Source: Variovorax paradoxus (GTDB lineage Bacteria; Pseudomonadota; Gammaproteobacteria; Burkholderiales; Burkholderiaceae_C). Taken from it: 64,000 nucleotides of DNA. Below, piece by piece: positions 13,034 to 16,189 of the stretch. Location: positions 744,001 through 808,000 of the forward strand of contig NZ_JAUSRN010000001.1 of NCBI RefSeq assembly GCF_030811855.1, in the 5' to 3' direction. A model generated the notes under the pieces. The model was not told the origin of the DNA. It saw only the letters and a list, made by a program, of their open reading frames with translations, and did not search any database. A program made the translations under genes and the position numbers. Positions within the stretch are counted from its first letter, which is position 1, and each line of letters begins with the position of its first letter.

Positions 13034-14374
13034 CTACAGGATCAGGAGCGCGCGGAAGTCGTTGACGTTGGTGTTCGTGGGGCCGGTCACGAAGAGGTCG
13101 CCGATGGCATCGAAGTAGCCGTACGCGTCGTTGCGGTCCAGGTGGTCCGACAGCTTCTTGCCCGCGGCGCTGGCGCGGGCCAGCGTGTCAGGCGCAACGA
13201 AGGCGCCGGCGTTGTCTTCCACGCCGTCGATGCCGTCGGTGTCGGCGGCCAGCGCCCACACCTGCGGCTGGCCCATGAGTGCGCCGGCCAGCCCCATGCA
13301 CAGCTCGCCAGCACGGCCGCCGCGGCCCTTGGCCTGGCCCGGCTGGCGCGGCCGGATGGTGACGGTGGTTTCGCCTCCCGAAAGAATGACGCAGGGCCGC
13401 GCGAACGGCTGGCCCCGGTGCGCCACGGCGCGCGCCAATGCGGCATGCACCTTGCCGACTTCGCGCGATTCGCCTTCGATCTCGTCGCTGAGGATGTGCG
13501 CTTCGATGCCGGCCTCGCGTGCCACCTTGGCCGCGGCTTCGAGCGATTGCTGCGGCGTGGCGATCATGTGGACTTCGTGGCCCGCGAACACCGCGTCGTC
13601 CGGCTTCGGGGTTTCGAGTTTGCCGCTTTCCAGTTGGGCGCGCACCGGCGCCGGCACCTCGATGCCGTAACGGTCGAGGATGGCGAGCGCGTCAGCGCAG
13701 GTCGTGGCGTCGGACACCGTGGGGCCACTCGCAATGACGGCCGCGTCGTCGCCCGGCACGTCGCTGATGGTGAGCGTCACCACGCGCGCCGGGGCGCAGG
13801 CCGCAGCCAGCCGGCCGCCCTTGATGCGCGACAGGTGTTTGCGCACGCAGTTCATCTCGCCGATGCCGGCACCGCTGTCGAGCAGTTGCTTGTTGATGCG
13901 CTGCTTGTCGGCCAGCGTGAGGCCTTCGGCCGGCAGCACCAGCAACGACGAGCCGCCGCCCGAGATCAGGCACAGCACGAGGTCGTCGGCCGTGAGGCCC
14001 TGGGTCAACGCGAGGATGCGCTCCGCAGCCTGCTGCCCGGCCGCGTCGGGCACCGGATGCGCGGCTTCCACGAGTTCGATGCGCTGCGGCACGCCTTCGG
14101 GGCGCGGCGGAATGTGGTCGTAGCGCGTGACGACCAGGCCCGACAGCGGCGCATCGGCCGGCCAGAGGGCTTCGAGCGCCTGCACCATCGAGCCGCCTGC
14201 CTTGCCGGCGCCGAGCACCAGCGTGCGGCCCTTGGGCGGCGGCGGCAGGTGGGCGCCCAGCGTGGACAGCGGCAGGGCGCGGTCCACCGCCACGCGGTAG
14301 AGATGTTCGAGGAAGGCGCGCGGCGTTTCGCGCGGATCGGGTACGGGGCCGAGAGAAAGGTTCGATGCGGTCAT
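13034..14374 (-). CDS. Glycerate 2-kinase, MOFRL family (GckA/TtuD type)
   Basis: The enzyme has 446 residues from ATG 14374, which has GGAG eight bases upstream; an ATG six codons earlier lacks a site. It should phosphorylate D-glycerate to 2-phosphoglycerate. The N-terminal part holds [17 protein letters not shown] and [15 protein letters not shown], which form the nucleotide and glycerate site. The C-terminal MOFRL domain is marked by [33 protein letters not shown] and [13 protein letters not shown]. It feeds carbon from tartrate, glyoxylate or serine into glycolysis. Ureide breakdown next door yields glyoxylate, which could reach glycerate through tartronate semialdehyde, though those genes are absent here. 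Confidence 0.88.
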
Positions 14375-14443
14375 TGCTTGCTTTGTCTCCATCCGGCAAT
14401 TGTGCGGCGAACGGCGGCCCGCTCTGTTGACCGCGGTCTACCC

Positions 14444-14709
14444 AGGGCCTGTTAACGCTGTGGAAGGGGATCGCGTTGCTTCGTCAAGGGGCTGTATGCA
14501 AGGCGCCCGGGCGCAGCAAGGCTTTGGCCTTGCAAGCGCGGGCAACGCCGCAGACGGCCCCTTGACGAAGCAACCCGCAGGGAAGCTCGCCACAGCCCGC
14601 CCCTCGGCGTTGCGCTCCTTGTGCGTGCGGACGCACGCACGGCGTCACGCGCCTTGATGGGCGGGCTGTGGCGAGCTTCGCGACCCCTTCCATAGCGTTA
14701 ACAGGCCCT
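14444..14709. repeat. 266-bp composite palindromic element with terminal and internal inverted repeats
   Basis: The ends AGGGCCTGTTAACGCT (14444-14459) and its exact complement (14694-14709) extend inward to about 30 of 32 matched bases. Inside are two further long hairpins: GTTGCTTCGTCAAGGGGC (14475-14492) with 14557-14574, perfect over 18 bases, and a roughly 27-base GCTCGCCACAGCCCGCCC arm near 14584-14601 with 14662-14680. Each encloses smaller stem-loops. The whole can fold into a cruciform. It starts one base beyond the puuD stop codon. It resembles a non-autonomous repeat such as a REP-type or MITE element, and no ORF of its own is credible. No other copy was noticed in the window. Confidence 0.75.
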
Positions 14710-14710
14710 A

Positions 14711-15916
14711 CTAGTTCGTCTTGGCGCCGGACTGGAACCAGCGGCCGATCAGTGCGCGTTCTTCTTCGGTGATGCCGGTTGCATTGTTCATCGGCATGAT
14801 CTTTGTCACTACCACCTGCTGGTAGATGGCCTGGGCATGCGCCGCCACCTGATCGGGCGTGTCGACCCGCACGTTCTTCATCTGCACGGCCGCGCCGTGG
14901 CACATGAAGCAGCGCTGCTCGAGCACCTTCTGCACGTCCTTGAACGCCACGGCGGGCACCGCTGCGGCCGCCGCGGGCGCAGCCGCCGGCTCGGGCTTCA
15001 TCCAGACGATGGTGAGCCCCAGCACCACGATGCCGATCAGCGCATAGGGCAGCGGATTGCGTGCGTTGCCGAGCTTGAACCGATGCCGCACCACGAAGAA
15101 CTGGCGAATGGCCGCGCCGCCCAACATGATGAGCAGCAACACGACCCAGTTGTACTTGTGCGTGTAGGTAAAGCTGTAGTGGTTGCTCAGCATCGCGAAC
15201 AGCACCGGCAGCGTGAAGTAGGTGTTGTGCACGCTGCGCTGCTTGCCGCGCTGCCCATGCACCGGATCGACCGGCCGGCCTTCGCGCAGTGCCTTCACGT
15301 TCTTGCGCTGGCCAGGAATGATCCAGAAGAACACGTTGCCGCTCATGGTCGTGGCCATCATGGCGCCCACGAGCAAGAAGGCCGCGCGGCCGGCGAACCA
15401 CTGGCAGGCGAGCCATGTCGCGAACACGATGAAGACGGCAATCAGAACGCCGACGATGGTGTCGCCGTTCTTGCGGCGGCCGAAGATCTGGCAGATGCCG
15501 TCGTACACCATCCAAAACACGACGAAGAACGCCAGCGCCACGCCGATGGCGGCGCCCGGCTGCCAGTCCATCTTCGTCTTGTCGATGAGGTAGGTGCTGG
15601 CGTTCCAGAGGTACGACATCGTGAAGAGCGCAAAGCCCGTGAGCCAAGTGCTGTAGCTCTCCCAATACGACCAGTGAAGGTGGTCCGGCAGCTTCTTGGG
15701 CGCGAGCGCGTACTTCTGCATGTTGTAGAAGCCGCCACCGTGCACGGCCCATTGCTCGCCGCCCACGCCCTTGTCGATCGACTCGGGGTCCTGCGGCTTC
15801 TCGAGGCTGTTGTCCAGCATCACGAAGTAGAAGGAGGCGCCAATCCAGGCGATGGCGGTGATGACGTGGACCCAACGCAGCAGCAGGTTGGCCCAGTCGA
15901 GGTAGTAGCTTTCCAT
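14711..15916 (-). CDS. puuD: Membrane urate oxidase PuuD with C-terminal cytochrome c domain
   Basis: The protein has 401 residues. It begins with MESYYLDWANLLLRWVHVIT and carries about eight membrane helices with conserved His, including WVHVITAIAWIGASFYFVML and HNTYFTLPVLFAML. An Ala-Pro linker leads to a C-terminal c-type haem domain with CFMCHG near residue 335 and a later MPMNNATG offering the axial Met. This is the PuuD layout: urate is oxidised to 5-hydroxyisourate and electrons leave through the fused cytochrome c rather than making peroxide. The start at 15916 follows GAGAGAGCACC. It lacks linked purine genes on its own transcript but shares a GTATAC operator with the hiuH/gntR promoter. 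Confidence 0.92.
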   Translation of the reverse strand: MESYYLDWANLLLRWVHVITAIAWIGASFYFVMLDNSLEKPQDPESIDKGVGGEQWAVHGGGFYNMQKYALAPKKLPDHLHWSYWESYSTWLTGFALFTMSYLWNASTYLIDKTKMDWQPGAAIGVALAFFVVFWMVYDGICQIFGRRKNGDTIVGVLIAVFIVFATWLACQWFAGRAAFLLVGAMMATTMSGNVFFWIIPGQRKNVKALREGRPVDPVHGQRGKQRSVHNTYFTLPVLFAMLSNHYSFTYTHKYNWVVLLLIMLGGAAIRQFFVVRHRFKLGNARNPLPYALIGIVVLGLTIVWMKPEPAAAPAAAAAVPAVAFKDVQKVLEQRCFMCHGAAVQMKNVRVDTPDQVAAHAQAIYQQVVVTKIMPMNNATGITEEERALIGRWFQSGAKTN

Positions 15917-16189
15917 GTGGTGCTCTCTCTCATCAGATTTGAATGAACCTACTGCGCGTCCCGATCTCGCATCTGCGGTCCTCACCGTACGGGAGTACGG
16001 TTCCGGTCCTCGACGCGACCTCGGGTCGCTCGCTACGGTTCCTTCACATCTGCGTAGCTCTCGTGGCGCGTGGGGCGCCAACGAGGGGTTTCAGCCTGCT
16101 CACCACTGCGGGCGCTGTAAGCAGAGAAAGTGCCGCGAACGCAGGCTCCATGGACTGGGCCTCGCTCCGCTGCGGCTTGTTGTGGACCG
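15917..16189 (-). other. Long puuD leader with strong hairpins
   Basis: No gene is supported in this 273-bp stretch between the operator and puuD. ACCGTAC (15984-15990) pairs with GTACGGT (15995-16001) around a four-base loop. GCGACC (16015-16020) pairs with GGTCGC (16024-16029). The sequence TACGGTTCC occurs twice, and ATCTGCG occurs on either side of the hairpins. A short open frame of about 35 codons starting MEPAFAALSLL also lies here on the minus strand. If transcription begins at the GTATAC site, this is an unusually long, structured 5' UTR. A purine-sensing RNA is possible, but no known class was matched. Confidence 0.35.

Follow-up and report, generated by a model that had tools for sequence, protein, structure and literature searches.

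The window, a stretch of 64,000 nucleotides of Variovorax paradoxus DNA, carries beside its puuD-like gene one copy of a non-autonomous element of about 265 bp, which is probably moved in trans by a TA-duplicating transposase and whose fold appears to have been preserved by compensatory change across the phylum. Copies of the element occur at many loci, an empty site is known in which the TA duplicated on insertion is still single, insertion sequences with matching ends exist, and stop codons are a frequent location of the copies. What is new is the inside of the element, that is, one architecture kept by compensatory change.

The window element and its copies

An earlier note on this DNA had described a 266-bp composite palindrome at 14444–14709 next to puuD, and both its coordinates and its arms were right. 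The terminal inverted repeats correspond to outer arms at 14444–14469 and 14684–14709 (26 nt, 96% complementary), and the two further hairpins to arms at 14472–14499/14550–14577 (89%) and 14582–14605/14656–14679 (96%). Comparison of the copies places the ends of the element at GGGCCTG (14445) and CAGGCCC (14708), and the window element matches positions 1–266 of the family's covariance model with 252.5 bits. Folded as single-stranded DNA, the segment 14430–14725 reaches -132.4 kcal/mol versus -69.5 +/- 3.6 for 200 dinucleotide shuffles, none of which is as good (z -17.7); folded as RNA, it has a z of -17.3. A chance palindrome is ruled out by this comparison and by the existence of a second copy. 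The TAG stop of the puuD-like gene (CTA at 14711–14713, minus strand) lies two bases from the element, with one TA between them, while the gene on the other side is presumably glycerate-kinase-like (Table 1).

Table 1. Parts of the window element and neighbouring genes, in window positions.
Feature	Positions	Strand	Basis or remark
Whole element, orientation of the family model	14445..14708	+	264 bp; ends from alignment of 21 copies
Outer stem, left arm with terminal inverted repeat GGGCCTGTTAACGC	14445..14474	+	
Hairpin 1, 100 nt, bulge boxes CAAGGCG and CAACGC	14475..14574	+	Fold and box positions
Central mini-hairpin CC-GCA-GG	14575..14581	+	Absent from the earlier note
Hairpin 2, 98 nt, hairpin 1 boxes on the opposite strand	14582..14679	+	
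Outer stem, right arm with terminal repeat GCGTTAACAGGCCC	14680..14708	+	
Right TA	14709..14710	.	Left counterpart 14443–14444 is CA
puuD-like gene, longest frame	14711..16081	-	ORF; Pfam Urate_ox_N 7.3e-130
Next gene, same strand as puuD	13034..14392	-	Pfam DUF4147 and MOFRL

The suggestion that the palindrome is a non-autonomous mobile repeat, to be checked by counting copies, is upheld by further copies in the same genome and in relatives, and by a puuD site that is empty elsewhere: the interval separating puuD from its neighbour lacks the element in all 29 relatives' loci examined (of 61 genomes, 60 gave a match, and the 30 best loci, including the window's own, were read). The second full-length copy in this genome, 97% identical, lies on another contig, where the target (site GTAA) was the TAA that ends a gene-like frame. 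Matches at E <= 1e-10 were found in 14 of 200 genomes of the family (13 of 141 genera), and a right-end pattern recovered at least 115 stretches from Variovorax, Acidovorax, Paracidovorax, Xenophilus, Roseateles, Pelomonas, Castellaniella and others. Length is 263–268 bp in 105 of 115 re-extracted instances, whose extraction was limited to about 240–300 bp and from which instances sharing the same flanks had been dropped. Exact end motifs number 48 in Variovorax sp. MHTC-1; the loci read there contain 24 full-length copies, 92–100% identical to a reference copy, as well as partial copies and a second subfamily. So many near-identical copies are a sign of recent spread. With 264 bp, terminal inverted repeats and no coding capacity of its own, the element has the make-up of a miniature inverted-repeat transposable element (MITE).

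Dispersed copies, a target-site duplication and an empty site, the further marks of a MITE, come together at one MHTC-1 locus. There the copy is flanked by CTA on the left and TAG on the right, and in a relative whose flanks are 97% identical the site is a simple CTAG, so that the exact empty site identifies insertion into CTAG with duplication of the TA. Target-site duplication, which the earlier note had proposed to look for, is thus clean at the MHTC-1 copy but imperfect at the window copy, where the left TA reads CA; among the relatives' loci inspected, none shows the empty site of the window copy to the exact base. Where the MHTC-1 copy lies, a further relative carries an 18-bp stub, CTA-GGGCCTGTTAACGGGCCC-TAG, which we read as the remains after hairpin deletion. 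Because most copies came from a pattern that demands the right TA, TA frequencies were taken from TA-independent sets; in 12 of 21 copies found without using TA, it is present on both sides.

Smaller sequences accompany the full-length copies in MHTC-1. Palindromes of 28 bp, such as TAGGGCCTGTTATTAATAACAGGCCCTA (L304 365–392, L305 373–400 and L308 373–400), are either what deletions left of larger elements or micro-elements in their own right, and three further loci (L306, L307 and L147) hold internal-deletion derivatives of about 24–55 bp consisting of ends only, a sign of palindrome instability. Separately, in genome G240 the gap between puuD and the kinase (L268) contains another, possibly IS630-like insertion of about 1.2 kb, with an open frame beginning near a CTAG by the puuD end.

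A phage or plasmid origin was rejected: phage records gave no match, and the one matching plasmid record is a 1.3-Mb Variovorax replicon. Plasmid searches with two deep-relative loci returned short pieces only (Azotobacter, Halomonas, Methylophaga). Elements with the same fold also occur in contigs classed as viral (L204 11136–11402, L208 937–1202, L218 367–629), and prophages may accordingly carry the element between hosts.

The fold and its breadth

The conserved structure was derived from 106 of the 115 instances, from which 28 representatives with pairwise identities of 53–85% were picked and aligned. RNAalifold predicts 86 pairs for this alignment, 68 of them with at least one compensatory change. 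Paired cells amount to 94.3%, versus 70.5% in shuffled and 37–42% in slid alignments, and the covariation score is 0.608, versus 0.166 when shuffled and at most 0.130 when slid; none of 500 shuffles reaches 0.608. Since a structure derived from its own alignment is favoured by it, a fold-free check was made by setting the first 25 against the last 25 letters of 84 elements in fixed register. Watson–Crick pairs account for 1950 of the 2100 positions, with 41 G.T and 39 A.C mismatches, while out of register only 24–29% pair.

Hairpin 1 spans roughly positions 31 to 129, and hairpin 2 starts near position 137 and stops about 29 bases short of the end, a layout that fits 83 of the 84 elements, one folding otherwise. 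Between the hairpins lies CCCnnnGGG in 81 of 84, with a GNA loop or its complement TNC in 69 of those 81 (8 of 64 triplets at random). Two boxes are also conserved, CAAGGC and CAACG, each in 69 of 84. The boxes of hairpin 1 reappear in hairpin 2 on the opposite strand, so that the element closely resembles its reverse complement and the covariance model matches both strands; the model output lists both, and the better one was used for element counts.

The covariance model, built from the 28 representatives, was prompted by a Castellaniella query that gave just 2 matches in 300 genomes of the order. At E <= 1e-5 it has matches in 98 of the 369 genomes drawn class-wide (79 of 272 genera) and in 95 of the 398 drawn phylum-wide; the two draws overlap partly, the E-values of the model are rough, and copy numbers per genome are lower limits because few candidates per genome were scored. 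Other classes contribute 57 of the 95 phylum genomes, 38 of those from one family. Among 56 fetched elements, 47 measure 263–268 bp, and TA is present on both sides in 29 and on at least one side in 46. Their identity to the window element (54–67%, median 61%) is close to that of its own shuffles (average 54%, maximum 60%), and it is chiefly the shared fold, length and boxes, less the identity, that mark the elements as related.

The ends vary more freely than the fold. GGGCCTG is found in 33 of the 56, and the others are compensated variants (GAGCCTG, GGGTCTG, GGGGCTG) or, in a few cases, unrelated. Repeated copies in such genomes have, read by eye, ends of the types GTGTACTGC, GTACTCTTTC, GGGAACC- or GGGAAACACTGATT-like, and several other end types still lie between CTA and TAG, or between CTA and TA. 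Since unrelated ends are found on the same fold, one fold travels with different ends. It is conceivable, if only tentatively, that the elements form a class of mobile DNA, spread through the phylum, that is inherited as a folded shape (outer stem, 100-nt hairpin, mini-hairpin, 100-nt hairpin) and not as a sequence; the shape would be the substrate of mobility, the ends would be swapped to suit the local TA-duplicating transposase, and the dyad-arranged boxes would bind a putative protein.

Covariation could also arise with no selection on the fold, if template switching within the palindromes of an ordinary transposase-driven element copied one arm onto the other. The near-equal G.T and A.C mismatches of the outer stem are strand-symmetric, as such copying would have it, and deletions inside the palindrome do occur, as the footprints indicate. 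Template switching, however, leaves unexplained the conserved boxes, which lie away from perfect stems, as well as the fixed hairpin lengths and the GNA/TNC loops, and we regard it as unlikely.

Stop codons, orientation and the candidate mobiliser

To describe the target, 91 copies were kept (252–270 bp long, with a TA on one side or both and 600 bp of flank each way), 79 of them with TA on both sides; the window copy falls outside the 79, as this set demands both. CTAG is the site of 51 of the 79. The target is the TAG or TAA stop of a gene-like frame in 52, while 8 copies lie inside such a frame and 19 have no such frame. Control sites from the same loci fall at such stops in 27 of 81 cases for CTAG and 276 of 4881 for NTAN. 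Copies in CTAG are thus at stops more often (36 of 51 versus 27 of 81; odds ratio 4.8, p 3.6e-5, the copies being not fully independent), and nine of the target sites serve two frames that converge on them. A wider set assessed by a simpler criterion gave 12 of 29 TA-flanked elements at stops, the controls being 7 of 26 for CTAG and 81 of 1719 for NTAN. Because the element begins with G, the stop is kept as TAG after insertion. Selection against copies that damage genes could account for part of the excess at stop codons.

A position directly behind stop codons, together with the very stable RNA fold, is also what would be seen if the structure terminated transcription or protected mRNA 3' ends, as the earlier note had envisaged for puuD. 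Insertions would then be harmless or useful, which would keep the structure in place. Orientation relative to the abutted gene is nevertheless random (31 to 30), and with copies in both orientations such a role on one strand gains no support, even if the near-dyad form could work both ways. By eye, no T run, the mark of an intrinsic terminator, follows the window copy on either strand. The ratio of G.T to A.C in the folded set, which is biased by the folding step and not decisive as a test of an RNA strand, is 47:18 in hairpin 1, as an RNA role would predict, but is balanced in the outer stem (14:13); in hairpin 2 it is 50:19, with 28 of the 50 G.T contributed by one invariant T.G pair, leaving 22:19. 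The loop gives a similarly divided picture: C-GNA-G is an unusually stable DNA mini-hairpin, while GNA, complemented and extended by one base, becomes UNCG, which forms a stable tetraloop in RNA; the loop alone is thus not decisive between DNA and RNA. Overall, a function of the fold in RNA seems improbable. A known structured RNA was rejected, as no Rfam family covers the element at gathering score in the 24 loci scanned. In that scan, a cobalamin riboswitch match (L390, 1360–1522) overlaps the first 22 bases of one element (1501–1766), and another element (L409, 1501–1766) lies 4 bases from a tRNA match (1771–1851).

We favour instead a role of the fold at the level of DNA, which the dyad symmetry, the lack of orientation bias and the mismatch balance of the outer stem suggest. 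As for the mobilising enzyme, a terminal-repeat scan of the viral contigs revealed two insertion sequences of 818–821 bp with the same ends as the element. The protein of one of them is an IS5-family transposase (NF033580, with DUF4096 and DDE_Tnp_1): against the NF033580 model transpos_IS5_3, with a cut-off of 110, its C-terminal part scores 120.6 bits and its N-terminal part, just under, 109. Relatives of this transposase are present in 26 of 200 genomes of the family. In 13 of 30 transposase loci the ends are paired, starting with GGGCCTGTT or a one-base variant; these insertion sequences measure 805–829 bp in 12 cases and 846 bp in one, 11 have TA on both sides, and two overlapping frames were seen in each of the three whose reading frames were determined. 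The transposase is assigned to the IS5 family by NF033580 and would, by likeness, be a member of the IS427 group. Since IS5-family insertion sequences share the ends and TA flanks of the element, mobilisation in trans by IS427-like transposases is likely.

As is usual for MITEs, the ends match those of autonomous elements, here of the IS5 family, and the two reside together in 3 of the 15 element-bearing genomes: 4 of the 15 carry an IS5_3 transposase that scores above the family cut-off, with matching ends in 3. Across the 200 genomes, element and transposase coincide in three (G004, G030 and G065), about 1.8 being expected by chance; we infer the class of the partner from ends and target, not from co-residence. 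Ends were allowed up to 3 mismatches, the resulting list was inspected by eye and ten places were fetched. A protein and profile search at E <= 1e-5 found no IS5_3 transposase in this genome or in MHTC-1, and an autonomous partner inside either was rejected at that threshold. By that search the transposase is missing from genomes in which copies have recently spread, and it may have been lost from them.

Much the same observations raise the idea of a mobiliser outside the IS5 family, a protein recognising the folded single strand, with the ends serving as mere arms. Folded single strands are recognised by the REP-associated Y1 transposases; no IS5_3 transposase could be recognised in most of the genomes tested that carry the element, and the fold is constant while the ends vary. 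The TA duplication, the preference for CTAG and the ends nearly identical to those of the 805–829-bp insertion sequences nevertheless fit a DDE transposase, as do several of the other end types, found between CTA and TAG or CTA and TA, which makes a single-strand mobiliser the least probable of the explanations considered.

Relation to known elements and proposed mechanism

Palindromic intergenic repeats are familiar from REP/REPIN and ERIC sequences, REPINs consisting of two hairpins in inverted orientation. The element shares this form with them; REP and ERIC sequences are shorter, and REPs are moved by Y1 transposases without TA duplication.

Among described MITEs, the Correia elements of Neisseria have predicted stable stem-loop transcripts (PMC10969869). 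Like them, the element is small, non-autonomous, dispersed and bounded by terminal inverted repeats; unlike the MITEs described in the available part of that source, its core is a fixed four-way fold with covariation across several classes, and its ends differ between lineages. MITEPsy1 of Pseudomonas syringae, 100 nt long with a 4-nt duplication, also has IS5-related ends and inserts at CTAG, or at YTAA, but the available text of that paper reports no composite fold like the one described here (PMC3189936). The insertion sequences with the ends of the element resemble the IS427 group of IS5 in their size, 2-bp flanking repeats and overlapping frames, the group being given as 832–865 bp, mostly with 2-bp repeats and often with two overlapping frames; its members encode a transposase, and a core resembling that of the element was not seen in the part of the source available (PMC3281130). 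Searches of the open-access literature found no description of the element itself. Letters identical to its ends occur in papers with titles on animals, people or yeast and in one bacterial paper, where they are part of a sequencing primer.

Mechanistically, a transposase supplied in trans, most likely from an IS427-like branch of the IS5 family, would use the terminal repeats and insert the element at TA, preferably within CTAG, sites that in these genomes are often stop codons. The outer stem, the two hairpins of about 100 nt and the small central hairpin would meet in a four-way junction. As to why the fold is maintained, we infer that, formed in single-stranded or supercoiled DNA, it may be needed for mobility, which is our preferred reading. 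It would bring both ends together, and the two sets of boxes, inverted with respect to each other, would be candidate sites for protein binding. On this view the element would be passed on as a fold, with the ends acting as an adapter that can be exchanged.

The common view of miniature transposable elements is that they are leftovers of insertion sequences. Here, a complex fold is kept across several classes, in about one quarter of the sampled genomes, with nearly all letters changed, which makes it testable whether a transposable element can inherit a DNA shape. In addition, the analysis reveals a feature that often follows stop codons immediately in these genomes and whose insertion remakes the very stop codon that it hits.
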